64,000 nucleotides of DNA. Source: Paracoccaceae bacterium (lineage in GTDB: Bacteria; Pseudomonadota; Alphaproteobacteria; Rhodobacterales; Rhodobacteraceae). Both the position numbers and the translations under genes were made by a program. The notes under the pieces are model-generated. The model was not told the origin of the DNA and did no database searches. It saw only the letters and a list, made by a program, of their open reading frames with translations. Positions 5,307-20,168 of this stretch are shown here, piece by piece. Each line of letters opens with the position of its first letter. Position 1 is the stretch's first letter. The stretch covers positions 868,001 to 932,000 of the forward strand of contig OY282431.1 of assembly GCA_958296035.1 (NCBI GenBank), given 5' to 3'.

Positions 5307-8300
5307 TCATACTGGCCTAGGGCCGTTGGGACGCCGTGTTCTCCAATGGTCGATCGCCGACTTGGCAAGTCTTTCGAGTTCATCCGTTTTCGCGAATGGT
5401 ACTTGAACCAAATAATATTTCTTTCCAGGTGGAGAAGCTTCATTTGCCAGAATGCAGGCAAGATGTCCTTTGCCCAGAAGCTTTTCGGCACCGGCACAAT
5501 TCAGCACCATTTGCGAACCTCTCCAGTCTTGCACTCTTAAGCATAACTTGTTGCCCATGTTGTCACGCAGGCGAGAAGGCACAGCCTCAGCGTCAGCGCG
5601 TTGTGTAATGAGCACGAGGTGGATACCCGCCGCGCGGGCTTTCATGCCTAGGTTGGCAACGGAAGAGAGGACAACTTTATTATAGTCCGGTTCCTGTGCC
5701 ATCCACGAGCCAAGCTCATCGTGCACAAGGAATAGGCGCGATAGCCGGGCCCGATTTGAAACTCGTCTATTGTATTCGACAAAATTGGGTACTTCTTGTT
5801 CTTCCAGGAGTTTGTATCGTCGGTCCATTTCAGCGACCAGGTTCTCGAACTCCTGCTTCGCTGATTCCATGTCTGAAATGATGTCCTTTCTGAGGTGCGG
5901 CGCACGTTTCATCCAGCCATAGTCTACCCCCATCTTTGGGTCTACGAGGACCAACTCTACGTTGCTCGGATCATTAAACGCGATCAATTGCAAGAGCAGG
6001 TTTTGAGTGAGTACACCCTTGCCACTACCAGTTTGACCCGCAATGAGCGTGTGTGGGCCATGCTCCTCAAACCCACCAAACTGCCCGCCCAGGTTTAGAT
6101 ACATGAGCCCGTCTGCATCCTCACGGGCGCCGAGTATGAAGTTCGTCCATTCTCCTACAGGACGGTCCGGCCACTTAGCCCCGAGCCACGTTGAAGCTAG
6201 TGGAACCGGTGCTCTCTTCTCTCGTCTGATAAATAACTCAACGATTCCGCGGCCTGGTAGAACATTTACGACATCAAGCCCGTGGGTAGTCAACATTTCG
6301 CTCCGGCGCTTTTCGACTTTATCGATTGTAAGCGTAGGGTGTCCCTTGAAGGTCACGAATACACCGTTGTGCGTTAACCTGTAACTTGGTTCCATGAAAT
6401 TGGCATGCATTCCAAAATGGCTCAGGGCTCGTTGCGTGTGGACGCAAGTCTTGTCTGCCCATGCTCTGGCCTCTGCATCACTTACAGAACCGGTGTCACT
6501 CTTGGCAATTTCCCTGAGCACGGTTGCAATCGTTGCCGGAATGAATCCCTGGCTCGGCTTCGAGATTTCCGGTTGAGTTTCAGGTGTTGCGGCAGGGCTT
6601 GAACCTGGCGGGGACACTGGTTTCGGCTCTGCCAAGGGATTGCCATTTCTTGGATCGAGTTTCTCCGTCTCTGGAGCTGTACTGGCGTGATACCAGTTGA
6701 GGGCGCGTAATCCGACGCTTGGAGGGTCCGCGCCCTTTCCGACCGCCTGCAGAATTGCCTTGATTTTCGGTGAAGGTATTATCGTGTGACCTAGGTGACG
6801 GGCCTCCGAACTGTGTTCCGACAGGATTGATGGCTCATATTCATCGTGCAGGCACAGCGTGGATTCTCCGCAAATGCGAAAGTCAATGTCGCCCGTATGC
6901 ATGTTCTTGAGAAATGAATTGCGAATGGCCTGGTCGCGGATATGGCTTGTCAGCTTTCCGTGGTGGATCAGAAGTTCAGCGAGTTGCCTGCACCAGGCAA
7001 CTCTCGATATCGAATCCTTGTTGTCGATAAGCACGCGCCTAATGTGGTTCACAGTATCTCGAACCTGATTCCCAGCGTCGCTAAGTTCCTGACCAAGGCT
7101 TACCTTCGAAATGAACTTCGCTTCGCCAACTAGGAATGAAACCCTGAAGCCCGGATCAAGGCATTCGACCAGAATGCCGATCATGTCTGCAATCTTGCCC
7201 TTTCCGGAGGTGAACCAGTGGCGATAATCGTCCAGCGACAGCCAGATAATTTGTGAGGCGGCCGGCAAGTTTTTCAAGAGTAAACTTTTCAAATGGATTC
7301 GCACCACACAGAGACCAATTATTTCTCGAGCAGCGTTTTCGTTGCGAGCCGCTGATAGAACTTTGAGCCCCGACAATTGAACGCCATCATTCAACACTTC
7401 ACCTGCAATCGTGCTGGCCTCGCCGTGATCCATTTTGAAAGAATGATCTAACTCTTGCTCTAGTCTCCGAGTAAGTCGGTTGTCGATCTTCTTTGACGAA
7501 ATTACCACGCGCCTTTCGGCATTTGGGAGTGAGGCATCCCTGATAATCCTTACGTCATGCTCTTCGAGCAAGTGTCGAATTGGAACCAGGTCTATGCTGA
7601 TGACCCACTGGGCCAGGTCGTGAGCACGATTTATCAAGTCGCTTACGAGTGAATCGGAATAATTTACCCGTCGGACCAGGGCGCCGTGTTTGTTCACCTC
7701 CAGATTAGCTTCGTTGCACATGGCGTAGAGAAGGTTCTGGTATTCGGCCACCGCGCAGGGAGGGAACTGCTGCGTCAGGTAAATTTCCGTGTCAATCGGA
7801 TCGGCCTCCGCCAGGCGCAGTTTGGCTGTAGCCTTGCTCTCCGGGTCAAACGATTCAAACTGAGTCTCAGCGCTGTCGTGCTCCTGTATCCAGACCGGTC
7901 TAGACTTCCGATTGATTGCGTCATGTAGAAAGATCAGGTCGAAATCATGGATTGAGCCGTTGCCATTATTTTGTGCGTGCTGCGCCGGTCTCACGTCGAC
8001 GCGCAAACGAGAAAGAAAGCTCTTTGCCGTCTCGCTTATATTTTCGTTTTCCAGCCGAAGATTCTGGTCTCGATAAATCTCTTGTAGACGGTCGGGTTCC
8101 TGATGCGAGATTACCAGGTCACACCGCAGTGCAGGATCGCCATGAATTCGTTTTGCCATGAGGCGGGCAATTTCTCGGGGAAGTGTCAGGCTTTCCAGAT
8201 TGTATATAGTTGCAGACAGGTTTGATTTTTCATGAGGATGTATTTCGAGGTACTGATCCATGCTATCCATGAACCATTTTGCAGCGGAGACAGATGTCGC

Positions 8301-10763
8301 CTCTAATTCTTCCTTGTTTCTGCCGACGATCCTGGCAGGCACGAGAAGGCTATAACCATCTCGGTCCTCGACCGATATCAGAGGCTCTTGGCCTGCGATA
8401 GCGATCCCAGGCCAACTCCAGTGGTCGACCAGCCTGCGCCTCTGTGCAAAGGCAATTGTCAAGTCTGCATTCTTTGCGACCTCTGAATCGAGAACCCTAT
8501 CCACGAAACACGCTAGACTTCGGATCTTGGCCTTTCTCTCGACGAGGCGAAATGGATGCCATGCAGGGATTATGGCCATTCTTTGCGATCCATCTGCGTA
8601 AATGAGGCCAATCCGCGCAACCAGAGGCCAGATCTTGGTCTGTGCCTTGCCGGTCGTTGCATGAATTCGGCAGGCGCGACACAATCTCCCGAACAGCTCT
8701 GCCTGTTCGGTCACACTGTCACTTGCAAATGCATCTTGCGGCTTGTTCGCAATTGTTTGAATAGCCTCGCAATACTTGCTCTCAAATGCGTCGATCAGGT
8801 GCCGCAGCTCGTCAGCTGCGTGGTCGTCTAGACTTCCTCCATTCTTGAGATCAAGAATTGTCTGTCTCAATTCCTCGACAATATTGTCATTGCATCGCAC
8901 GTGCCTGGAAAAGGTTCTTCCGGTCTGCGACTGCAGAACATCACTGAACGTGTTTGTGTCTGCCAGTTTCAACGGCGCCACGCTGGTATCTTGTGCACCT
9001 GGTAACGACGCAAAGGTCTGCTTGCGAAATATGCCTCCACCCTCGGTGGCCGATGCTTCAGCAAGTTCACTGACATCTGCCTCGAATGCGAGGCCAATAG
9101 GTTGATCCTTGGACTTCAGCCCGGGTTGCCAAACAGCCTTGATCCGCGGAGCGTCAGAAGGAGGTTTGTAACCTAATGTACCCTTTTGGATGTCCGTCGC
9201 TTCGATCAGGAAGAGTACAAGATCTACCTTGCGCTTGTCTTTTGCGATTGAGGGCTTTTCTGCATTACCATTTAGGCAGGTGTCGATGTCCCACTTAACG
9301 CGGGCACCAAGTTGCCGGTGCAACAGTTGATACTCAAACGTGAATAATCTCTGAACACGCTTATCGAGATTTTTCCAGAAAATTGCCTTGGCGTGCTGAG
9401 ATGCTCGAACCAGAATGCACGGTTCACTCATTTCTACCAAGGCGTCCGACCCTTCCAACAACAGTGCTTCGACGCCTTGTTCAATTGTGGACAATAGATC
9501 TCGTCCAGAGACACTCTTGGGGTAAATGCGCTGCAGCCAAGGTTTGAATAGTCTCGCTTGGGGATGATTCAGTTTGTCCTGCCACTTGTCAAAAAATTCT
9601 CGTTCCTCTTCCTTCGGAGGATTTGAAGGATTGCGCGTCAGGTTTTCGAGCAATGTCCTGTCGGTATCGGAAACTTCATCCCCATAGTTTCCTTCAATGA
9701 ATTTGAGCGTTCTCTTGCCCATGCCTGTGCGTGTGGTTTTTCGAGAACCCGAAAATATTCTCTTGCCAAAACGTGTCCACGAAACGCGTTCACAGAATTC
9801 CTTTTGGCTTTGTCGCCAATCACCGAAGTTGAAGTTAGGCTCGTCATCAAGCAGTCTTTCCACCGCAGCAATAGCGGCCTCAGCTTCATCATTGGCAGCC
9901 TCATCCTCCACGCTTACTTCACGCCGTAAGGTCTCCAGATTTTCGCGTACCTTCGGGATGTTAACTGGGTCCTGACCGGGGGTCAGAAGCTTGGCGTAAA
10001 CGCTGACGTTGTACCATGCAGTATCGAACGCTTGCCTGAATCGGTGTGCTGGTTTGACATCTGTGGAATTTTGAAGCTTTGGGAGCTTTTCGATCCCATC
10101 AAGTGGAATCCCGAGTGCCGGTGCGGCCCTCTGCATGCGCGTATGCACAGGTCTCGAAAACCCTTGAGCCTTAATGGCACGGATGAAGTCTATCCACATC
10201 TCAAGATCAATGAAGACCTGTGAGTCGCGCAGACCATCGAGCAAACTGATCAAGTATTCCCTAGGTCTGCAGCTCTCGCCAAGCATGTCGACCCAGTCAG
10301 TTGTCCTTTCGATAACCGTTTGTTCGTCGATTCGGGAAAGTGGTCCCAATCCCGCTCCGATTTGCTCTCTTTCCTCATCGGAAGGTGCAAATACGATTAC
10401 GTCAGCGGCAGTACTATGCCGCCAATGTATGGCTGACTCGCTTGTCAGGAACCGCCAATCGACTATTAGATTTTCGGCCGCATCTTGGTTAATCCGCAGC
10501 AATAAACTACGATCTTCGATTGGCGTCGCAGGAAACTGCCTTGCTACGCCTTCCAGATGGAGGGCCTTAAGCCCTGCAAGCATGAATGTTACTCTTTCCT
10601 GCTGCGCGGCCGAACGAATTGCCTCATCAACAATATTCCAAACTACTTTGCCGGCATATTGGCCCTTGATATGACATTCATTGCACCGGTTCTTTCCGAC
10701 TCCTGTTGGAATGGACGCTGCGCAGAGGGCACAACTGCCGGTCGAGCCTTCAATGCTACTCAT
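5307..10763 (-). CDS. sspH: SspH/DptH-like FtsK-type ATPase of phosphorothioation-dependent restriction
   Basis: A very large protein of 1818 residues. It opens with a probable zinc site (C11, C14, C27, C30). The last 300 residues are an FtsK/HerA-type motor: Walker A GQTGSGKG with lysine near 1582, the strand ELVLVDPKMG, and a Walker B-like LFLVHDELG. The long middle has no motif I can name. This architecture and size match DptH/SspH, the largest component of the three-protein restriction modules that damage DNA lacking phosphorothioate. It is the last gene of the operon, its start overlapping the end of sspG by 8 bases, which indicates translational coupling. The ATP-driven movement on DNA is inferred from the motor family. 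Assignment to SspH rather than DptH rests on the neighbouring sspABCD genes. Confidence 0.85.
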   Translation of the reverse strand: MSSIEGSTGSCALCAASIPTGVGKNRCNECHIKGQYAGKVVWNIVDEAIRSAAQQERVTFMLAGLKALHLEGVARQFPATPIEDRSLLLRINQDAAENLIVDWRFLTSESAIHWRHSTAADVIVFAPSDEEREQIGAGLGPLSRIDEQTVIERTTDWVDMLGESCRPREYLISLLDGLRDSQVFIDLEMWIDFIRAIKAQGFSRPVHTRMQRAAPALGIPLDGIEKLPKLQNSTDVKPAHRFRQAFDTAWYNVSVYAKLLTPGQDPVNIPKVRENLETLRREVSVEDEAANDEAEAAIAAVERLLDDEPNFNFGDWRQSQKEFCERVSWTRFGKRIFSGSRKTTRTGMGKRTLKFIEGNYGDEVSDTDRTLLENLTRNPSNPPKEEEREFFDKWQDKLNHPQARLFKPWLQRIYPKSVSGRDLLSTIEQGVEALLLEGSDALVEMSEPCILVRASQHAKAIFWKNLDKRVQRLFTFEYQLLHRQLGARVKWDIDTCLNGNAEKPSIAKDKRKVDLVLFLIEATDIQKGTLGYKPPSDAPRIKAVWQPGLKSKDQPIGLAFEADVSELAEASATEGGGIFRKQTFASLPGAQDTSVAPLKLADTNTFSDVLQSQTGRTFSRHVRCNDNIVEELRQTILDLKNGGSLDDHAADELRHLIDAFESKYCEAIQTIANKPQDAFASDSVTEQAELFGRLCRACRIHATTGKAQTKIWPLVARIGLIYADGSQRMAIIPAWHPFRLVERKAKIRSLACFVDRVLDSEVAKNADLTIAFAQRRRLVDHWSWPGIAIAGQEPLISVEDRDGYSLLVPARIVGRNKEELEATSVSAAKWFMDSMDQYLEIHPHEKSNLSATIYNLESLTLPREIARLMAKRIHGDPALRCDLVISHQEPDRLQEIYRDQNLRLENENISETAKSFLSRLRVDVRPAQHAQNNGNGSIHDFDLIFLHDAINRKSRPVWIQEHDSAETQFESFDPESKATAKLRLAEADPIDTEIYLTQQFPPCAVAEYQNLLYAMCNEANLEVNKHGALVRRVNYSDSLVSDLINRAHDLAQWVISIDLVPIRHLLEEHDVRIIRDASLPNAERRVVISSKKIDNRLTRRLEQELDHSFKMDHGEASTIAGEVLNDGVQLSGLKVLSAARNENAAREIIGLCVVRIHLKSLLLKNLPAASQIIWLSLDDYRHWFTSGKGKIADMIGILVECLDPGFRVSFLVGEAKFISKVSLGQELSDAGNQVRDTVNHIRRVLIDNKDSISRVAWCRQLAELLIHHGKLTSHIRDQAIRNSFLKNMHTGDIDFRICGESTLCLHDEYEPSILSEHSSEARHLGHTIIPSPKIKAILQAVGKGADPPSVGLRALNWYHASTAPETEKLDPRNGNPLAEPKPVSPPGSSPAATPETQPEISKPSQGFIPATIATVLREIAKSDTGSVSDAEARAWADKTCVHTQRALSHFGMHANFMEPSYRLTHNGVFVTFKGHPTLTIDKVEKRRSEMLTTHGLDVVNVLPGRGIVELFIRREKRAPVPLASTWLGAKWPDRPVGEWTNFILGAREDADGLMYLNLGGQFGGFEEHGPHTLIAGQTGSGKGVLTQNLLLQLIAFNDPSNVELVLVDPKMGVDYGWMKRAPHLRKDIISDMESAKQEFENLVAEMDRRYKLLEEQEVPNFVEYNRRVSNRARLSRLFLVHDELGSWMAQEPDYNKVVLSSVANLGMKARAAGIHLVLITQRADAEAVPSRLRDNMGNKLCLRVQDWRGSQMVLNCAGAEKLLGKGHLACILANEASPPGKKYYLVQVPFAKTDELERLAKSAIDHWRTRRPNGPRPV

Positions 10764-12276
10764 GGTTACCTATGTAAGGATTGGTTACGAACGCACAGTC
10801 GTCAGATAATCGGTGAACCAGCGCAAGCCGAGCCATCCGTTCTTCAAGTTCCGCTAGATTGGCTTCGAATTGTTGGGCTCCGACGTGCGGACGGTCAAAC
10901 GCCTTTCGAGCCTCGCTGGGGCCGGCTACAATTCCGTATCGTACATAAAGCTTCTCCAGAAACTCCCGAAGTTCTGTTTTCTGATCCGCATTGGCCACCG
11001 TTAGAGCGATCAACGTCTTGTCGCTCATGCAAAACCACGTACCAATTCCTGGCCTTGCCTTAACCAGGCCTGCGTTCTTCGTGAGAGGGAGGAGAAACTT
11101 GTAGATATTGTTCTTGTCTCTCTTGATCGCCTGATCAATACCCTCCTGGAGTTGAGTTTCGGGTGGCGTGGTTGGGTGGTCCTCGGGTGAGACGCCAAAC
11201 AACACCTTTAGAGTCTTGGTAGGTGTGGTGTCTTTGGCGTGATCCTCAACAAATTTCTTGACGGCACGATTTGCCAATTTCCTGTGCCAATCAAAGTGCT
11301 CTTTGGAGCGGTCTCGAAGTTGTTTTTCGGACCCGTCCATAAAGTCCATCATAATTGGTACTGGCCGAGCCTTGCCTGACCCGACCGGAAAGACCTGGTC
11401 TCGGGCAATTTCTGCCAGGTACACAACCAGGTTCAGTGCAGTAATCCGGAACAATGGCTCAAACCTATGACTTTTCGGAAGCCGATTGAGTCTCAGAATG
11501 GCATTCCAGTCTTCGGCCAGTCGCAAATAAGCGTGATGGTCTTTGTGCGGCAGATATCCGATTTGAGTCCTTGACCAGTCGTCCTCATCCGGGTCACTCA
11601 ATGCGTTTGCCACTTGGTTCAATGGGTCATTCGACTGCCCGAAACTGTCTTCGATAAGACTGTTTAACGATTCTGAGAGCTTGGAACGATTGAGCATCAG
11701 ATAGACAAGTTCACCGGCCCGGCCAAAGAACCGACGATCGATCGACCATTTCCCTCTGCTTTCGCGCATGTCAGGCAAGATCATGTCAGGTCCGGTCACA
11801 GCAAGAAAACGCGACGTCCATCGTCGATTGTGGACGACATCGATTTCAGCTGACCGCAATAGTCGGACCGCTTGGCGAAGCGAAGAAATGGAGCATTCAA
11901 AGCTGCTGTCCAGGTAGGCGAAGTGATCTTGGCCACTTCCGCCCGGGTCAAACTGCCCGTTGACTGCAGATTTCCACTGGTCCCACTTTTGATCGTCGTG
12001 AATATTCCCATCATCGGCGATTTCATCGAGATTTCGGTCCTGAAAAAGAAGAAACCTCAGTTTGCGACGACGCCGTAACCTGTACTTGAAGCACTCATGT
12101 TTATCCTCCGTTGGAAGAAAGTTCCCAAGAGGCGTGCCGGCCATCACAGCGAGTGCCTCGAGAACAATCATGAATGGTTCTTGCTCAGTGATAAATCGAT
12201 GGCCGTAAAGGCGCTCCTGAACTTCCATATTGGTGCTGTCGAGGAGTCCATCGGGAGGAGGTAAACACATCACCAC
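10756..12276 (-). CDS. sspG: SspG/DptG-like restriction component
   Basis: A 506-residue protein without a signal peptide or obvious membrane segment. I see no standard nucleotide-binding motif. The length and its position between a P-loop protein and a giant FtsK-like ATPase match DptG/SspG, the middle subunit of the phosphorothioation-dependent restriction complex. Its start overlaps the sspF end by 7 bases and its end overlaps the sspH start by 8, so the three are probably made in fixed ratio. Name assigned mainly from gene order; the biochemical role cannot be read from the sequence. Confidence 0.75.
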   Translation of the reverse strand: MVMCLPPPDGLLDSTNMEVQERLYGHRFITEQEPFMIVLEALAVMAGTPLGNFLPTEDKHECFKYRLRRRRKLRFLLFQDRNLDEIADDGNIHDDQKWDQWKSAVNGQFDPGGSGQDHFAYLDSSFECSISSLRQAVRLLRSAEIDVVHNRRWTSRFLAVTGPDMILPDMRESRGKWSIDRRFFGRAGELVYLMLNRSKLSESLNSLIEDSFGQSNDPLNQVANALSDPDEDDWSRTQIGYLPHKDHHAYLRLAEDWNAILRLNRLPKSHRFEPLFRITALNLVVYLAEIARDQVFPVGSGKARPVPIMMDFMDGSEKQLRDRSKEHFDWHRKLANRAVKKFVEDHAKDTTPTKTLKVLFGVSPEDHPTTPPETQLQEGIDQAIKRDKNNIYKFLLPLTKNAGLVKARPGIGTWFCMSDKTLIALTVANADQKTELREFLEKLYVRYGIVAGPSEARKAFDRPHVGAQQFEANLAELEERMARLALVHRLSDDCAFVTNPYIGNHE

Positions 12277-14063
12277 TTCCCCGTCTGGCCCAGGATACCA
12301 ATCTCGTGGTCAACCAGGTTGCCAATGCTATCCAATGCGATTTGCCGTGGCACTGATGACGAAAGGAATTCCCTATCAATCGCAGCGGTGACCTGCAGTT
12401 GAAAGCGGGTGATGGCTTGAAGGCATTCAGACGAAAAGCTTGCCGGTAGTGCTCCCTCGGCGACCCGCAGGAGGCACTCGACAAGAGTGGGCCACAAATG
12501 GAGGTCAACATTGCGCTTCGGATTTCCTGAAGGCGTAATTCTGAGGATCGGAGGACTTCCGTCACTGGCAACGATCGGCATTGAAAAGAAGGAAAGTGTG
12601 TGGCGCCGGTCTCCTACCTCTGCAACAAGTAATGGCATGCCTTGGCCACGAAAGACACCAGAAGGCTCGGTTAGCCAGATTCGATCACAGGTCTTCGCCA
12701 GCTCGCCAGTCATCATCCGATTCAGCCCTCGCAGCAATTTGCGGCGGATGCGAGGCGGCAAGGGGATGTCTTCGTTTGCACACGAGTTGGCGAGCTTTAT
12801 GTAATCATCTCCATGCCTGAAAAGTGTCAGATTCCAGGGTGAGGTTTCTTGACGATTACCGGTGCTTGCCGGTTCAATTGAGAAGAACAATCGTCGACGC
12901 TGATCAACCACCTTACGCTCAAATGCTGAATCGTAGGTGCTCGTGTCGTTGAGGTACCTTTCCCAGTCCTCGCCAAGCAGTTCTGTGCCGTATTGCTCGC
13001 GATTCGGCAATTCCGAGCAGTCGTTCAGTATGCTGTGATCGAAATAGTTGTTGGTTTCGAATCCAATCCCAAACTCCTCAAGCACCGCAAAAACCCAGTA
13101 CTGGCGTCGCTGCCTGATCCGAAGATTGTTTCCGAACGCATTTGCGTAGGGATTGGTAAGTGCATAGGCCTTCTTGCTGGCCCGATTGCGAGCCTTTTTG
13201 CAGGTCAAGAGCTTGCCTGGGCTTTTTTCGTCACCCAGTAAGATGTTAACGACGAGCAAAATGAGCTGCCTGATTGACACATGACGACCATCAGCAGCTG
13301 CCATGCGGATCAGGTCCCTAAGGCGTGCGCGCATCGTTGCATCACCGCGTTCCTGCAAGATTCTCAGGTTACAGCGGATCGGACACGGATTCTCTACTGA
13401 AGTAAAAGCCGGGCAACCCTCACATTGCCGCCAGTCCGGGTGTTCGACAATGGCGTCGAGAATATCTTCCACTAGCTCATGATGGGATTGACGTGACATG
13501 TTGTGCAGACGATAGACTTCATCCCCACTGTCACTTTTTCCTTTGCGAAGACTCTCGGCTATTAGATCGCCAAGTCCTTCATCTCGGTCTTGGCGGTCTT
13601 TGAAGAACCTAAGCAAGTGTCCGTCATTGACACAAATGACGAACAGCTCATCGGTCCGACCAAGCAAGGAGTCGCGAATAGAGGCGAAAACACTGTCCTT
13701 GTCGGCTTTATTGAGTTCACTCAGGTCCTTGATAAAGGTCACCTTGCGGTGAGGCTGTGAAGGCAAGTCAAGCGTCAGGTACTTTTGGGTGTTGGTCCAC
13801 CCGACTGTTCCAATGTCCAATGCTTCAAGCAGTTTTCTCGCGGTGTATGTCTTGCCATCTCCCGCAGTGCCGGTGAGGATAACCGAGCGAGGGTGGTCCC
13901 CAAGCATGAGACCCTTCAAATTGCCAACGAGAGGTTGTTCAATATGAAGTGGCTCGCAGCCGGTTCTCTTTGCAGCTTCAACAACGAACTCGTCGTAGAG
14001 ATTGTTGGATGATGGTTGCGGTCCGTACGAGGCCAGAAAACTGACAAGTGGATTGTTCGTCAT
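12270..14063 (-). CDS. sspF: SspF/DptF-like P-loop ATPase of phosphorothioation-dependent restriction
   Basis: A 597-residue P-loop protein. Walker A is GTAGDGKT at residues 65-72. A cysteine cluster follows near residues 213-230 (CEGCPAF, then CPIRC), possibly binding zinc. DptF/SspF proteins have the same N-terminal P-loop and overall length and work with the G and H subunits against unmodified DNA. It begins 10 bases after sspD ends, so modification and restriction genes share one transcript with no room for a promoter between them. Domain evidence is seen; restriction of unmodified DNA is known for the family and inferred here. Confidence 0.85.
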   Translation of the reverse strand: MTNNPLVSFLASYGPQPSSNNLYDEFVVEAAKRTGCEPLHIEQPLVGNLKGLMLGDHPRSVILTGTAGDGKTYTARKLLEALDIGTVGWTNTQKYLTLDLPSQPHRKVTFIKDLSELNKADKDSVFASIRDSLLGRTDELFVICVNDGHLLRFFKDRQDRDEGLGDLIAESLRKGKSDSGDEVYRLHNMSRQSHHELVEDILDAIVEHPDWRQCEGCPAFTSVENPCPIRCNLRILQERGDATMRARLRDLIRMAAADGRHVSIRQLILLVVNILLGDEKSPGKLLTCKKARNRASKKAYALTNPYANAFGNNLRIRQRRQYWVFAVLEEFGIGFETNNYFDHSILNDCSELPNREQYGTELLGEDWERYLNDTSTYDSAFERKVVDQRRRLFFSIEPASTGNRQETSPWNLTLFRHGDDYIKLANSCANEDIPLPPRIRRKLLRGLNRMMTGELAKTCDRIWLTEPSGVFRGQGMPLLVAEVGDRRHTLSFFSMPIVASDGSPPILRITPSGNPKRNVDLHLWPTLVECLLRVAEGALPASFSSECLQAITRFQLQVTAAIDREFLSSSVPRQIALDSIGNLVDHEIGILGQTGKW

Positions 14064-14073
14064 GGCGCAGCTC

Positions 14074-14946
14074 TCACAGGTGGCAGATGGCGCAACCCTG
14101 CGCTGGTTGGTCCGGCCGCCTTTCGTAACGTTCCGTTATTCGTTCCAGTTCCTCAAGAGACCTGGTTTGCGACCAGGTGAAACGTCGACCGTCAGGCTTT
14201 GGTTTTTCGTAGTCCTTTGCGGCTTCAAAGAGTTCGGGATGGCGTTCCTTAAGTCGCTGCCATTCACCAACCTGTTGAAAGAAACAGAAGTAGCAGCCAG
14301 AGCGTGACCGCCAATCGTAGTAAGATGGCAAGCCCAATCCGCTTTCCATCAACAGATCGCGCACATCATCCAGCCTAAATCCCATATCCTTCAGCGGATA
14401 TACCGGGATGATGTTTTGCCTATTCGAGATTGCGACCGTTTTAGATTGCGAATTGTCTGACTTGTTGTTGGATTCTGGCCGAGAAGTTCCCAGAAACCCC
14501 TGTCTGTCCTCGTCGGCGCGAATTCCAATGTAGGAAAAGGAGAGGTCTTCACCCACAAAGTGCTCGAACGGTTTGATCTTGAGCATGCGGGTGCACCACC
14601 TCGCCTGCGGGTTCGGCAGGAATCCGGAATAGACTTCATTCAGGAGCACATCGAAAGGAGATCGTCGACCACCTTTGGATCGTACCCGGAGCTCCGGAAG
14701 GTCAAGCGCGGAAAGCCGCGTAATCTCAACTCCGAAGATCGATTCAAACCGCTTCAGGTATCTGTAGGTTTCAGGCAATTCAGCACCGGTGTCGGTAAAT
14801 ACGAACTCAAGAGGAAGATCCCGGTGAGTTTCAATCATGAAGACTGCTAGCGCTGTAGAGTCCTTTCCTCCACTCATTGGGACAATGTGCCGTCTCGAAC
14901 CGTCCTTTACGGCATCTTGAAGATGCGTTGTCTTTACCGCTGTCAC
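14074..14946 (-). CDS. sspD: SspD sulfurtransferase, ATP-pyrophosphatase/PAPS reductase-like
   Basis: A 290-residue protein of the adenine nucleotide alpha-hydrolase superfamily. The PP-loop SGGKDS is at residues 25-30, followed by FTDTGAELPET, as in PAPS reductase and DndC. Cysteines at 118, 218, 221, 285 and 288 are well placed for an iron-sulfur cluster. In phosphorothioation systems this enzyme activates the DNA phosphate with ATP and passes sulfur from the cysteine desulfurase. It is much shorter than typical DndC, and together with DUF4007 SspB this points to the single-stranded Ssp type. Its GTG start overlaps the TGA of the sspC 3' segment as GTGA, so translation depends on ribosomes finishing the full-length sspC frame. 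Confidence 0.88.
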   Translation of the reverse strand: MTAVKTTHLQDAVKDGSRRHIVPMSGGKDSTALAVFMIETHRDLPLEFVFTDTGAELPETYRYLKRFESIFGVEITRLSALDLPELRVRSKGGRRSPFDVLLNEVYSGFLPNPQARWCTRMLKIKPFEHFVGEDLSFSYIGIRADEDRQGFLGTSRPESNNKSDNSQSKTVAISNRQNIIPVYPLKDMGFRLDDVRDLLMESGLGLPSYYDWRSRSGCYFCFFQQVGEWQRLKERHPELFEAAKDYEKPKPDGRRFTWSQTRSLEELERITERYERRPDQPAQGCAICHL

Positions 14947-16043
14947 TTGTGAACCTCTTCCAGATATTGTGTAAGTGTTTCATGGCCAATCTTGCGGCTA
15001 AATCTGTCAAGCGTGCGCGCAAGATAGTTCTTCAGGAACCGCTCGGCTTCCGGCGAGGAATCAGCTTGATCGAACGCCTTGACTTCGAGACGATGGACAG
15101 CAGCCTCAAGGCGCTCTCGAAAGCTTGCCGAGTTCCGGACGCTCCACTCGTCGAAATCAATCCCCAGCAGTATTCCGCTCAACGCTGCCAGGAAGCCGCG
15201 CTCGCCCTGCGGAAACGATGCTGCCCGCTTTGACTGCGACAGAATGCCTTGAGCTTCCTGGTCCAGCCCGGTGAGTTCATGACTATTCAAGGGGAGTGTT
15301 TCTGCCCAGGCAGTGGCGGCCTGCATCAGGGGAAGTGGCGGCCCCGACATTCGGGAGTTAAAGACATGGGCAGCGTGGGCCGTCGCGGCGTTCACATATG
15401 TTTCGGTAACCAACGAGAACTGCTCTATGGCCATGGCGAAAAAATGGACGGACTGATCGGTCAGTACGGCGCCATCCAGTAGTCGCGGGAGATCACGAAC
15501 CAGAAAGTCGAACGGGTCGAATGAGCCTTGGCGAAGGAATGGCTGAAGCAGATCGGCTTCTTTACCCAAACCCGAAGTCTTCAGGGCAGAAGGTGGAAGT
15601 TCGTTCCGCCAAGCAAGAATTGCATCATACAGTCCCCGTATCAGATCGGGTTCAACGGGATCCAAATTGCCGGCGACAAGACAAATCATTTTCTCCAGAT
15701 TTCGGCACTGTACGCTGGATAACGGAAACGTCTCAAGTTCAAATTCAACCGGATTTTCGCACAGCCGGTCGATAAGTGACGGCGTAATGTCGTCCACGTA
15801 TTCGCGACCGGAAGCAACGATCTCCCGAATGGCAATTCCCCGTCCAAATGCTTGCAGACCGGCTGCAATAAGAAGCGGAATGAGACCCTGGCGGATGCCT
15901 AATGGTGGCGCGGTAAGCCTGTCGACAAGTTGATCAAAGCGTGTACGTGATTGACACGGTGGAGAAAGGAATCGTTCAATGTGCTCCCAGGCCGAGCGGG
16001 TGCCGGGATCTGAAACCGCGTCCGGATGTACCCACTGGCCCAT
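14943..16043 (-). CDS. sspC: SspC, C-terminal segment separated by a poly-C frameshift
   Basis: A 366-residue open frame which I read as the rest of SspC, not an independent gene. Upstream in this frame only a short run across the poly-C tract is open before a TGA at 16065-16067, while the long sspC frame runs into the tract and then degenerates. The first ATG (16,043) has no visible ribosome binding site and sits directly after the tract. The text is conserved-looking: LTAPPLGIRQGLIPLLIAAG resembles the C-terminal parts of large ATPases in modification and restriction loci. A run of 14 or 11 C would join the two into about 1,060 residues. It ends at 14,943, overlapping sspD as GTGA. It could in principle be made as a separate polypeptide. 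Confidence 0.75.
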   Translation of the reverse strand: MGQWVHPDAVSDPGTRSAWEHIERFLSPPCQSRTRFDQLVDRLTAPPLGIRQGLIPLLIAAGLQAFGRGIAIREIVASGREYVDDITPSLIDRLCENPVEFELETFPLSSVQCRNLEKMICLVAGNLDPVEPDLIRGLYDAILAWRNELPPSALKTSGLGKEADLLQPFLRQGSFDPFDFLVRDLPRLLDGAVLTDQSVHFFAMAIEQFSLVTETYVNAATAHAAHVFNSRMSGPPLPLMQAATAWAETLPLNSHELTGLDQEAQGILSQSKRAASFPQGERGFLAALSGILLGIDFDEWSVRNSASFRERLEAAVHRLEVKAFDQADSSPEAERFLKNYLARTLDRFSRKIGHETLTQYLEEVHK

Positions 16044-18130
16044 TCCTGGGGGGGGGGGGGTACATCAGTATACAAACCACTTCGCTCGAAAACGGTGCGA
16101 AATATCGATGAATCTGCCGAGGTCGCACCCGCATATCCGAGTGACGCACTTCCGCTACGCTCGATAATCGCCAGCATACAGCGTTTCCGTGCCGATCGTG
16201 CGGTGGCGGTCAGTTTCCTTCGCACTACCTGCTCATTCCCGATGACCGGCGTGTCAGGAAAGCGGCGTTCGAAGATTCTCGTCAACACGTCGCCTGAATC
16301 TTGGCCCGATGCGAAGTCATACCGATGACCAGCGGATACCCATATAACTTCACCGTGATCCGTATTCATTAGATCGTCGAGTGTCCGGTGAAGCAGCAGT
16401 TCTGCCTCTACCTGCAACTCGCCAAGTTCGCGGACAACGAGAGGGTCAGTGTCAACAATGTCAGATCTCCCTAACAGCGAACGAATTGCAACGAGCTCCG
16501 CCAGACTGTCCTTAACTTCAGTTGCCCGGCGTGGCAACGCGACAATCGCGTGCTCTGGAAGCGAGCTTATGGCATCAAGAAGGTCGGAGTTTTCAATCGA
16601 CGCGTCGACAACCAAGGCAACCAGTGCATCTTCACGGTCTGCAGTCTGCGCAAGCTTAGTCAGCCCGTTGGCGCTCATAAGGTTTTGTGAAAGTTCAAAT
16701 CGTCCGGGGGCAAATCGTGTGATCAAATGCTGATGGTTGTAGCGGGGAGCGGTATAGGCGACGGGTGGAAACAGACGTTCAAGTGTGGATACTACGTCTT
16801 GTGAACCAGAAAACTGCTTGACTTCTTCAGCAATCAAGCCTTGGAGGTCGAGGTCAGGTCCGTGCCACAATGACATGTCATCAACGCGGCTTCGATGAAG
16901 CAAAATCTTCCGCTCTACTAATCGGTCGATCTCAGCGTCGGTTTCGTCGACAGGAATAGAAGTTCCTGCCGCGACTGCAAAGGCGAGACGGTTCCGTTGC
17001 AGTCTTCGCCGCTCTCCTACATTTCCGAGCTGCAGTAGAGCAGTTGCCTTTACGATATGTTCTTGCAAGGCCGTATCTGATCTGGAAAGTGCGGTTTCCG
17101 CTTCGACGTAGCGCCGAAATGTTCCACCTATGCCCGTATCCCTGCGCATGGCCGGGACCAGGAAGTCATAAAGTTTGTCTAACCCAATCGTGCATTCTGG
17201 GCTTATGGCGACGGTCTCGTCGAGAAAACGGGAAACGGTTCGCTGATATTGTGCTATTTGCGCAGCCAGCCTAGGCAACAAGTCCAGAGCTGCGGGTGTT
17301 AGCGGTTTTGTCCGAACTAGAAGATGCTCGAGTGCTTTGGCATCACTGAAGTCCGGAAAAAACCCGAGAGACAGTGCATCTGCGGCAATAGTTCTGCCTA
17401 TATGGCCGCGATTGTTGTCAACCTTTCGTGCAATCAGTTCGTAGTCGTCAGCCCAGTCATCAACCAATCTCAAACTGTCGAACCGGCCTTCAATCTTGCT
17501 CCAGGACCACCGAGCGTCGTCCAAAACCCGGCTGGCGTAGCGGTCGAATCCCATGTGCATCAGCGTCGTGAGTGTCACAGTCGGGCGCTTGCGGCGAACC
17601 GTCCATTCCGCTAGGTCCTGAACGGCTAGCAGATCCTCTTCCTTTCCTTCGCGAGCCGTTGACTCGAGATGCTGGCCAAACTCATCCCAAACAATTGCCA
17701 GATGCTCCACGCCGTCCTGACGAAGCTTGCCGACTAGACTGCTCAGTGCTTTCCTCACACTAGTTGGGGGATCGATGTTTGCCTGTTGGCAGAGAGTCTG
17801 CGCCAGATTAAGGCATTTTCCATGTAGCAAGAGTGCGAAGGCACTGCCGGCTGACGATTTGAGCGCTCGCGCCAGCTTCTCGTCCGCCTTTGCAATCTTG
17901 TGGATCAATTCCTCTGCATGTGCTGAGTCGCCTTGCAGGATCGTAATCCCAGCCAAGGCGGCCATCGATTTGCCGGCACCATATGGTGCGATAATGCGGG
18001 TTGCCCGACTGCTGCCAGAATTACAAATCGCCTCGATAACCCGAATTGATTTTTGGGTTGCACAGAAATCCTCAAGTGCCTCCGGCCTGCGGAGGTCTTC
18101 GGCAATGTTTATGGAATAGATCTGGTTCAC
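15899..18130 (-). CDS. sspC: SspC ATPase, N-terminal segment, out of frame after poly-C tract
   Basis: Encodes 743 residues as sequenced, but homology-like sequence ends at about residue 690. After four prolines from the poly-C tract, the remaining 50 residues are out-of-frame readthrough of the downstream segment. Walker A APYGAGKS is at residues 48-55 and a Walker B-like HLAIVWDEFG follows at about 190. SspC is the ATPase of the phosphorothioate modification complex, acting with SspB nickase and SspD. The GTG start overlaps the sspB stop as GTGA. The full-length product would be about 1,060 residues; as sequenced, the modification complex would be incomplete. Confidence 0.82.
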   Translation of the reverse strand: MNQIYSINIAEDLRRPEALEDFCATQKSIRVIEAICNSGSSRATRIIAPYGAGKSMAALAGITILQGDSAHAEELIHKIAKADEKLARALKSSAGSAFALLLHGKCLNLAQTLCQQANIDPPTSVRKALSSLVGKLRQDGVEHLAIVWDEFGQHLESTAREGKEEDLLAVQDLAEWTVRRKRPTVTLTTLMHMGFDRYASRVLDDARWSWSKIEGRFDSLRLVDDWADDYELIARKVDNNRGHIGRTIAADALSLGFFPDFSDAKALEHLLVRTKPLTPAALDLLPRLAAQIAQYQRTVSRFLDETVAISPECTIGLDKLYDFLVPAMRRDTGIGGTFRRYVEAETALSRSDTALQEHIVKATALLQLGNVGERRRLQRNRLAFAVAAGTSIPVDETDAEIDRLVERKILLHRSRVDDMSLWHGPDLDLQGLIAEEVKQFSGSQDVVSTLERLFPPVAYTAPRYNHQHLITRFAPGRFELSQNLMSANGLTKLAQTADREDALVALVVDASIENSDLLDAISSLPEHAIVALPRRATEVKDSLAELVAIRSLLGRSDIVDTDPLVVRELGELQVEAELLLHRTLDDLMNTDHGEVIWVSAGHRYDFASGQDSGDVLTRIFERRFPDTPVIGNEQVVRRKLTATARSARKRCMLAIIERSGSASLGYAGATSADSSIFRTVFERSGLYTDVPPPPQEWASGYIRTRFQIPAPARPGSTLNDSFLHRVNHVHALINLSTGLPRHH
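16048..16060. repeat. 13-base homopolymer in sspC (G on plus, C in the gene), candidate contingency locus
   Basis: Thirteen consecutive G on the plus strand, read as CCC codons (proline) within sspC. The 5' frame continues GTA plus 13 C plus CAG and then runs out of frame. The 3' frame needs 14 or 11 C to follow the same GTA. The break between the two frames falls exactly at this tract. Long poly-G/C runs slip during replication and are known phase-variation switches in restriction-modification genes. They are also a common place for assembly error. Confidence 0.9.
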
Positions 18131-19035
18131 GAGGATGAAGACTTCGCAACATATCCCGCGCGATTGTAAAACAGGCCTGCCCAGGTGGCTGAGCGAGCAC
18201 TCCGAACGGCAATTGTGGATCTGCCTGCTAAGCTGCGAACATCCATGCGCGCCGCACCTAACTGTTGAGCACCCGACGAAGCAACCTCAAGCAATTGTTC
18301 ACGGTTCCGGCCAAGCATACTGGCGACCTGTGAGATTGCGGCATCCGAGATCAAGATGTCAATTTCGACATCTTCATCAAGCAAATGAGACGGTTTCTTG
18401 GCAGCGATTGACGACAGCACTAGTCCAAGCGTTTCTGGTGGCATAGGTGTCGGTTCAGATCGTTCGTATCTGTCGGCCGTGCATAGATGGCGCAACAAAT
18501 TGAGCCGGTGCAAAGAACAGCCAAGATTATCTTCTGGGTCGCCAACGGACCTTGGCACCGGCACCGCGTAGGCTTGCAAAACCGTTGAAACTTCACGTTG
18601 GACACGCTTGATGGTCAATGGCTTGCCGCTCTTCGTTCGGGTGCTTTGGTGCATGCTTTCGACCAGGGTTGCGCGATCGAAACGAGACGGGCGTCGATGA
18701 GAAAAAAACCATGGAAGCGAGGATTTGGTACCAACAGTCATCGCATTAGCATGTACAAACCACCACGTACCAAGTGATGTCATGTAGGGGTCAAACCTGG
18801 CAACTGTCTTGCCGAAGCTTGAAAGCACCAGTGGCTTGTTGTGTCCTGGACGTTCGGCCAGCCCCGTCACGCGCAACCACCAGCCAATTGATCTCGCCAT
18901 GTTACGCCCAACTCCCAACGCGTCGGCAACATCTACCCTGGAAAATGCTCCGGAGCAATTGTTCCACAAATGAAGCATGCCCTTGGTAAGCCAACCCGGA
19001 CGCGGGTAAAACGTTTCGTGTCCACCGAGTTTCAT
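18127..19035 (-). CDS. sspB: SspB, DUF4007 DNA-nicking subunit
   Basis: A 302-residue protein opening with KLGGHETFYPRPGWLTKG, the characteristic start of DUF4007 proteins. In the Ssp phosphorothioation system the DUF4007 protein SspB nicks DNA so that sulfur can be placed on one strand. No catalytic residues can be assigned with certainty from sequence alone. It overlaps sspA upstream as ATGA and sspC downstream as GTGA, so it is firmly in the operon. DUF4007 also occurs in other defence loci, but with SspA and SspD on either side the SspB call is strong. Confidence 0.87.
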   Translation of the reverse strand: MKLGGHETFYPRPGWLTKGMLHLWNNCSGAFSRVDVADALGVGRNMARSIGWWLRVTGLAERPGHNKPLVLSSFGKTVARFDPYMTSLGTWWFVHANAMTVGTKSSLPWFFSHRRPSRFDRATLVESMHQSTRTKSGKPLTIKRVQREVSTVLQAYAVPVPRSVGDPEDNLGCSLHRLNLLRHLCTADRYERSEPTPMPPETLGLVLSSIAAKKPSHLLDEDVEIDILISDAAISQVASMLGRNREQLLEVASSGAQQLGAARMDVRSLAGRSTIAVRSARSATWAGLFYNRAGYVAKSSSS

Positions 19036-20168
19036 GCCAGACCGCCCATTAGCGCGCGCAAACAGGTCACCTCGTCCGCGATCGCTTCAATTGCACGTTC
19101 AATGTCCCGAGAAGAATTGTCGACTGCAAAAGCAAACCTTACGCTGGAGAAGGCTTGCTCCTGAGAAAGACCCATTGCCAATAGAGTAGGCGACGGCTCA
19201 GGGGAGCCCGATGTGCATGCCGATGTCTGAGAGCAGAGGATATTCCGGCTTTCAAGGCGCGCAACCAATGCGGTTCCGTCCACGCCCGAGAACGTGATAT
19301 TGCTTGTATTCGGCAATCGGTCAACCTGCGCACTGTTGACACTTATGCCCGAGAGAAGTTCTCCCAAGCTGGTCTCGAAGTTGTTGCGCAACTGCCTCAA
19401 TCGCTCGACTTCAATACCAAGATTGCGCAACCTGAGATCACATGCCACGCCCAGCCCGACAATTCCAGCGACATTTTCGGTTCCGCCACGAAGGCCCTTT
19501 TCTTGTTTTCCTCCGACCTGAATGACGGGCAGCTCGGCATCTGCATTCATGATGATGAGAGCACCGACACCTTTTGGCGCGTGAAACTTGTGGCCTGAAA
19601 GCGTCAGATAACTGACTTTGCATGATTTAAGATTGACCGGTTTGCGACCAACAACTTGGGAGGCATCCACAAGGACGGGAGCTCCGTGGTGCTCCGCACA
19701 ATTACAAATTGCCGAGAGGTCTTGAAGAGTTCCTGTCTCCCCACTGGCCCAAGCAACAGCAATCAGCGCGGGAAAGTCGACCAAAATGCGGTCCAGTGCC
19801 GCTATGTCCCAACGTCCGTTTCGGTCAACCGGAATGAAATGTAAATCTTCCCCGGCATAGTGTCGGTAAACGCCAGACAACGAAGGATGCTCGGTGTGTG
19901 ATATAATCAACCGGTATCGCGCCTCTCGATAGTGGCGTTGAACGGCCTCGTTTCCCTCAGTGGCACCCGATGTGAAAACGATGTTATCTTCTGCAACTGA
20001 CAACAGCCTTGCCAGACGCCTGCGTGCCAATGAAACCGCCCTTGCTGCAGCTTGTCCAAGACTGTGCTGGCTTGACGGATTGCCCCACACATTCTGCAGC
20101 GTGTGTGTAACGGCCTTGACAACTTCTTCGGCGGGCCGTGTCGTTGCATTGTTGTCGATATAGATCAC
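19032..20168 (-). CDS. sspA: SspA/DndA-like cysteine desulfurase, PLP-dependent
   Basis: A 378-residue class V aminotransferase-fold cysteine desulfurase. The N-terminal YIDNNATTRP, the PLP lysine in SGHKFH (K194) and the catalytic cysteine in SACTSGS (C318) are all present, so it should be active. It removes sulfur from L-cysteine as a persulfide for SspD to use in DNA phosphorothioation. It is the first gene of the operon, with a GTG start. IscS/NifS-type housekeeping enzymes share the fold, but the overlap with DUF4007 sspB assigns it to the modification system. The upstream region runs into IS66 remnants, so the native promoter may have been altered. Confidence 0.87.
   Translation of the reverse strand: MIYIDNNATTRPAEEVVKAVTHTLQNVWGNPSSQHSLGQAAARAVSLARRRLARLLSVAEDNIVFTSGATEGNEAVQRHYREARYRLIISHTEHPSLSGVYRHYAGEDLHFIPVDRNGRWDIAALDRILVDFPALIAVAWASGETGTLQDLSAICNCAEHHGAPVLVDASQVVGRKPVNLKSCKVSYLTLSGHKFHAPKGVGALIIMNADAELPVIQVGGKQEKGLRGGTENVAGIVGLGVACDLRLRNLGIEVERLRQLRNNFETSLGELLSGISVNSAQVDRLPNTSNITFSGVDGTALVARLESRNILCSQTSACTSGSPEPSPTLLAMGLSQEQAFSSVRFAFAVDNSSRDIERAIEAIADEVTCLRALMGGLA

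Follow-up and report, generated by a model that had tools for sequence, protein, structure and literature searches.

The described system closest to the locus analysed here is SspABCD-SspFGH of Vibrio anguillarum FF-93, which is built from the same kinds of genes (PMC8092258). For that system, sspBCD functioned with IscS in the test described, and SspFGH without modification harmed the E. coli host and caused DNA damage; the consulted parts of PMC8092258 make no mention of a switch, whereas sspC in the DNA analysed here is broken by a homopolymer. Type 4 BREX, as presented in the consulted parts of PMC12839542, has homologues of SspB, SspC, and SspD in common with this operon, which differs from it in carrying sspFGH. 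With regard to switching, the modification-based phage defence Pgl of Streptomyces coelicolor is switched by a G tract in pglX at rates reported as 10^-2 to 10^-4 (PMC4365076); in phasevarions, homopolymer slippage alters DNA modification and hence defence and perhaps gene expression (PMC12707154); and type IIG enzymes of Campylobacter provide a further phase-variable restriction-modification comparison (PMC8713573). These accounts agree with, and add Pgl to, what an earlier sequence-only reading of this DNA had noted, i.e., that poly-G/C switches are known in restriction-modification genes. Pgl switches a methyltransferase, whereas the run described here affects the ATPase SspC, which is related to BrxC/PglY by profile and Foldseek comparisons, and runs in relatives also affect the cysteine desulfurase SspA; restriction-modification in phasevarions involves base methylation, whereas the present system involves phosphorothioation. 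The same reading knew of no such switch in an Ssp system; likewise, no phase-variable phosphorothioation was found in the literature searched, with subscription titles largely outside it, or by term checks in the available text of PMC9239217, PMC12602166, PMC12839542, PMC10853773, PMC6459556, and PMC9531527.

In the window, i.e., the whole 64-kb stretch of DNA that was analysed, PADLOC profiles and in part Pfam identify a minus-strand operon of seven genes in the order sspA-sspB-sspC-sspD-sspF-sspG-sspH (Table 1). The modification genes sspA, sspB, sspC, and sspD are adjacent, with sspC in two frames, as are the restriction genes sspF, sspG, and sspH; with the mechanically listed starts, every gene overlaps the next, apart from sspD and sspF, which are separated by 10 bases, and the six genes other than sspC are open frames. 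Judged from its genes alone, the operon is a complete sspABCD-sspFGH system. The remaining components of Type 4 BREX are PglZ and BrxL, and a profile scan of the eight frames of the seven operon genes found neither. A megablast search for close plasmid relatives gave no match.

Table 1. Positions in the window of the ssp operon genes and of the homopolymer run within sspC.
Feature	Position	Strand	Basis and remarks
sspA (cysteine desulfurase)	19032..20168	-	PADLOC profile, Pfam
sspB (DUF4007)	18127..19035	-	PADLOC profile, Pfam; 4-base overlaps with sspA and sspC (listed starts)
sspC, whole span, two frames	14943-18130	-	PADLOC profile
sspC upstream frame, 743 aa including 49-codon out-of-register tail	15899..18130	-	SspC profile to 733
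sspC downstream frame, 366 aa	14943..16043	-	SspC profile positions 741-1048
C13 run (G13 on +), candidate switch inside sspC coding region	16048..16060	-	
sspD (PAPS reductase-like)	14074..14946	-	PADLOC, Pfam; 4-base overlap with sspC end (listed start)
sspF	12270..14063	-	PADLOC profile
sspG, overlapping sspF	10756..12276	-	PADLOC profile
sspH (FtsK-like C-terminus), overlapping sspG	5307..10763	-	PADLOC profile, Pfam

As assembled, the run comprises exactly 13 bases, G on the plus strand and C on the coding strand, and no other G/C run in the window exceeds 7, where 39 runs of length 5, 6 of length 6, and 2 of length 7 were counted; extrapolation of the run-length decay from length 5 gives an expected number of runs of 13 of approximately 7 x 10^-5 per window. 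No tandem repeats were detected in the window at the default score. The best stretches of the two sspC frames match SspC profile PDLC02779 at positions 147-733 and 741-1048, and close homologues of sspC form a single frame of at least 1,060 residues, as in the relatives G003, G004, and G007 and in Rhodovulum bhavnagarense and Rhodothalassium salexigens, where the frame runs uninterrupted for 1,060-1,241 aa (stop to stop); since the two halves adjoin on the profile and the homologues are single proteins, sspC represents one gene that is out of register. The earlier claims that a 13-base poly-C tract splits sspC, that the halves meet at it, that they sit in different registers at 13 bases, and that the upstream frame degenerates past it, here over 49 out-of-register codons, thus all hold, as does the frame arithmetic, by which 14 or 11 bases give one protein; the TGA placed "immediately" before the tract is near enough, with four bases lying between. 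A ribosome leaving the frame would stop at 15899, approximately 950 bases ahead of sspD, while the downstream frame has an ATG directly after the run. In comparisons with the G003 homologue, mismatch by codon position was 0.32/0.23/0.62 for the N-terminal half (56% amino acid identity) and 0.33/0.27/0.68 for the C-terminal half (52% identity), a pattern indicating that both halves are still evolving as coding sequence and that the downstream half has not decayed. As at a contingency locus, the register of sspC is set by a repeat of an unstable kind that lies within its coding frame.

We consider it probable that this run acts as a slipped-strand phase switch of DNA phosphorothioation, with the downstream SspFGH probably silenced by polarity. 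Replication in living cells would add or remove bases in the C run, and full-length SspC ATPase would be made in one register out of three; in the other registers, including the assembled one, translation would exit the frame at the run and yield SspC without its C-terminal third, so that phosphorothioation should stop. The untranslated stretch between the premature stop and sspD would also lower expression of sspD-sspFGH by polarity, an effect suggested by the single-strand, overlapping organization of the operon together with the length of that stretch; promoter- and terminator-like sites were no more frequent than in shuffled sequences. Modification and the self-damaging restriction arm would consequently go off jointly, and the benefit may be bet-hedging against phages. 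Switching of sspC or sspA alone should be costly, given the harm done by SspFGH without modification, which provides a reason for joint switching.

Comparison with other genomes supports the proposed phase switch, without proving it. SspC relatives are uncommon: they occur in 7 of 61 genomes, in 14 of 394 family genomes, and in 9 of 385 genomes of the class, each count including this genome. Runs were looked for in 33 SspC-like loci outside the window, made up of 10 named records and 23 loci that are more distant; little flanking DNA was covered for the distant loci, with sspA often outside, and likewise upstream of sspB in the G003 locus. In five other family genomes, an ssp modification gene (sspC in three, sspA in two) contains a G run 9-12 bases long. 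In APA_bin_40 (G003, L072), a G10 run lies in frame in the same sspC loop that holds C13 in the window; the Roseovarius genome CAR3_bin_17 (G140, L074) has G11 approximately 50 codons beyond that loop, and its sspC is split into frames of 757 and 321 aa that are both SspC by profile; the SspC of G133 (L090), which is more distant and lies between SspB and SspD by profile, carries G12 in frame. For sspA, G10 splits the gene in bin131 (G004, L075), where both frames match the SspA profile, and G9 is in frame at the same site in p16x60bins.67 (G007, L073). Together with the window, these runs occupy four sites in two genes across six genomes, and the gene is in frame in three of the genomes and out of frame in the other three, so that both registers occur among related genes, as expected for a contingency locus, only across species. 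The expected number of runs of at least 10 per stretch of sspA-sspD length, at each genome's own density, is 0.011 for G003 and 0.074 for G004; the value for G007 (0.012) is indicative only, since the G007 run is 9. By contrast, no run of at least 9 was found in the DNA covered for six of the 10 named records (L076-L081) or for 22 of the 23 more distant loci, which include four of the same genus (L018-L021) from three genomes. The window and G003 runs consist of opposite bases on the coding strand within one loop and thus arose separately. Wherever a profile was used to check sspF (five operons), this gene is open and downstream of the run. We lean towards a broader reading, in which ssp operons of probably sponge-associated Rhodobacteraceae gained homopolymer switches repeatedly, joint SspFGH switching included; this reading spans the four sspA/sspC sites, the one loop with opposite bases, and a wider phase-variable restriction repertoire. 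The sponge origin of some relatives is suggested by MAG names and by the host list in the consulted part of PMC8163846. As a separate observation by eye, sspC in NVQY01000033.1 (NORP181, L079:2026-5428) is frame-broken, its C-terminal third is replaced by an unrelated, HNH-like-looking frame, and the sspD- and sspF-like frames that follow are open.

In an AlphaFold2 model of SspC from G003 (mean pLDDT 84.3, pTM only 0.52), the residues encoded by the run, 690-693, lie at a turn between strands 688-690 and 698-700, with helices 643-657 and 673-683 preceding the hairpin and a mean confidence of 65 for residues 691-700. In this model, the run sits where a beta hairpin turns, and the hairpin looks like the wing of a winged-helix module; truncated SspC would retain the ATPase portion but lack the wing and all that follows it. 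The run loop varies in length among SspC homologues, and length changes that keep the register should therefore be tolerated. Alignments inspected by eye place the G140 site within the 741-750 loop and the G133 site close to the 309-317 loop. No solved SspC structure was found by sequence; the best Foldseek matches were N-terminal structures of BrxC and ORC/Cdc6 AAA+ proteins, with TM-scores over the query of at most 0.28.

Placement of long runs in the restriction-modification genes of this genome also supports the phase switch. The genome (3,644,635 bases, one contig) has six G/C runs of at least 11, one of which is the sspC run of 13. A restriction gene at 1651.9-1656.9 kb (L009/L038:1900-6919) is split at G14 into a nuclease-helicase half and a methylase half of a type IIG/ISP-like enzyme; an intact type ISP enzyme contains an in-frame C11 (L013/L039); and two cassettes, each pairing an IS1595-type transposase frame with a methylase frame downstream (L001/L040:3294-5756 and L006/L041:6023-7403, the transposase identified by Pfam in L040 only), carry runs of 11 and 13 between the frames. 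The remaining run lies between two glycosidase genes (L005). Restriction-modification or ssp genes are thus touched by five of the six runs of at least 11 versus none of 15 runs of 8-10 (Fisher p = 0.0003), the latter comprising nine Pfam-scanned sites and six named by eye. The two cassette methylases have a weak Mrr-like domain, with G11 or G13 directly before TAG/GTG; run length could perhaps govern translational coupling of the transposase and methylase frames. At approximately 2274 kb, C8 (L033:1992-1999) is found where a LapA-like repeat-protein frame meets a second frame, which by eye resembles an autotransporter barrel and has no Pfam match.

At least one G/C run of 11 or more is present in 25 of the 41 family genomes searched, this genome included, and the six runs found here are ordinary for the family; the idea that this genome is unusually rich in long G runs is hence not supported. 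Eight relatives of the genus hold 136 runs of at least 10. The genus survey took 80 stretches with 84 runs (86 entries, two sites being double-counted; none from G005), among which 33 sites had a flanking frame of at least 200 aa and 26 of these were scanned. Thirteen of the 26 were restriction-modification genes (L100, L102, L104, L124, L145, L158, L161, L167, L170, L171, L173, L177, and L179), a rate that is biased since the sites were picked for long flanking frames; at 12 of the 13, the longest flanking frames are in different registers. Many runs in G002 and G006 are flanked by short frames only. For location control, 20 runs from ten other genera were used, taking for each up to five frames of at least 130 aa no more than 100 bases away; the scan covered 65 frames belonging to 19 runs, as one run had no such frame, and no restriction-modification family was among the best 25 of 40 Pfam families. 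We give no weight to the corresponding Fisher comparison (5/6 versus 0/20); the control rests on the best 25 of 40 families. Several other genus run sites, mostly without Pfam match, look like secreted proteins in which the run lies close to the 5' end; signal-like starts with 5'-end G/C runs were seen by eye at L154, L159, L162, L169, and L178 (G004), L118, L122, L123, and L130 (G002), and L143 and L151 (G006), resembling contingency loci of surface proteins. Two genomes of other family genera, G061 and G072, have 33 and 26 G/C runs of at least 11, respectively, partly clustered, which far exceeds the number in most of the 41 family members searched.

With regard to length instability, three insertion-sequence copies in this genome carry G9, G8, and G9 despite 222 identical upstream and 1,301 identical downstream flanking bases, and two further close copies carry G7; the two methylase cassettes differ in length as well, with runs of 11 and 13. 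Either run length shifts faster than substitutions accumulate or assemblies err at homopolymers, and such errors could explain both the exact length of C13 and the differences between the insertion-sequence copies. These copies (L182-L186, in order G9, G7, G8, G7, and G9) lie beside a transposase-like frame. Separately, two adenine methylases of G004 that are similar by eye (L158 and L177) have, at seemingly the same site, a run of 11 with the gene split and a run of 10 with the gene intact, respectively.

Long homopolymers can allow slippage of RNA polymerase or the ribosome. Read-through of C13 by either would give constant, graded production of full-length SspC with no switch, an explanation that would fit the conservation of both halves in spite of the out-of-register gene; we nevertheless consider it unlikely, since a frameshift signal, if fixed, should keep to one place and length, whereas the runs of relatives differ in base, site, and gene and occur both in and out of register, and run length differs between the insertion-sequence copies. 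Misassembly, with a true length that leaves sspC always intact and no switching, would be favoured by the difficulty of calling homopolymers this long and by the genome being a single contig of unspecified read type; it seems improbable to us, as the existence of a long run is itself undoubted, as runs recur in records of different accession prefixes, some out of register, and as 8-base runs in FtsW-, DapE-, and TopA-like genes of this genome (L030, L035, and L036, named by eye) are in frame.

That sspC is a pseudogene broken by chance at a homopolymer would likewise agree with its register in the assembly, while the six other open operon genes, the codon-position constraint in both halves, and the run-associated breaks of the same kind that two further genomes show in ssp genes make chance decay very improbable. 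Division of SspC into two natural proteins at the run, which the sequence-only reading had named as an outcome that would overturn it and for which the two long frames and the ATG directly after the run might speak, was rejected in view of the uninterrupted homologues described above.

A random switch in a modification gene looks suicidal unless restriction is also off, given that SspFGH attacks unmodified self DNA according to the consulted parts of PMC8092258; the position of the run, ahead of sspFGH in an operon of overlapping genes, offers a concrete, testable answer to this puzzle of self-damage. Such a switch would also provide a genetic explanation for the differences in phosphorothioation between cells that are discussed there. 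If the phase switch is real, phase variation of DNA modification would extend from the bases to the backbone, in carriers that look like symbionts rather than pathogens, and a clonal population would contain sulfur-marked and unmarked genomes side by side.
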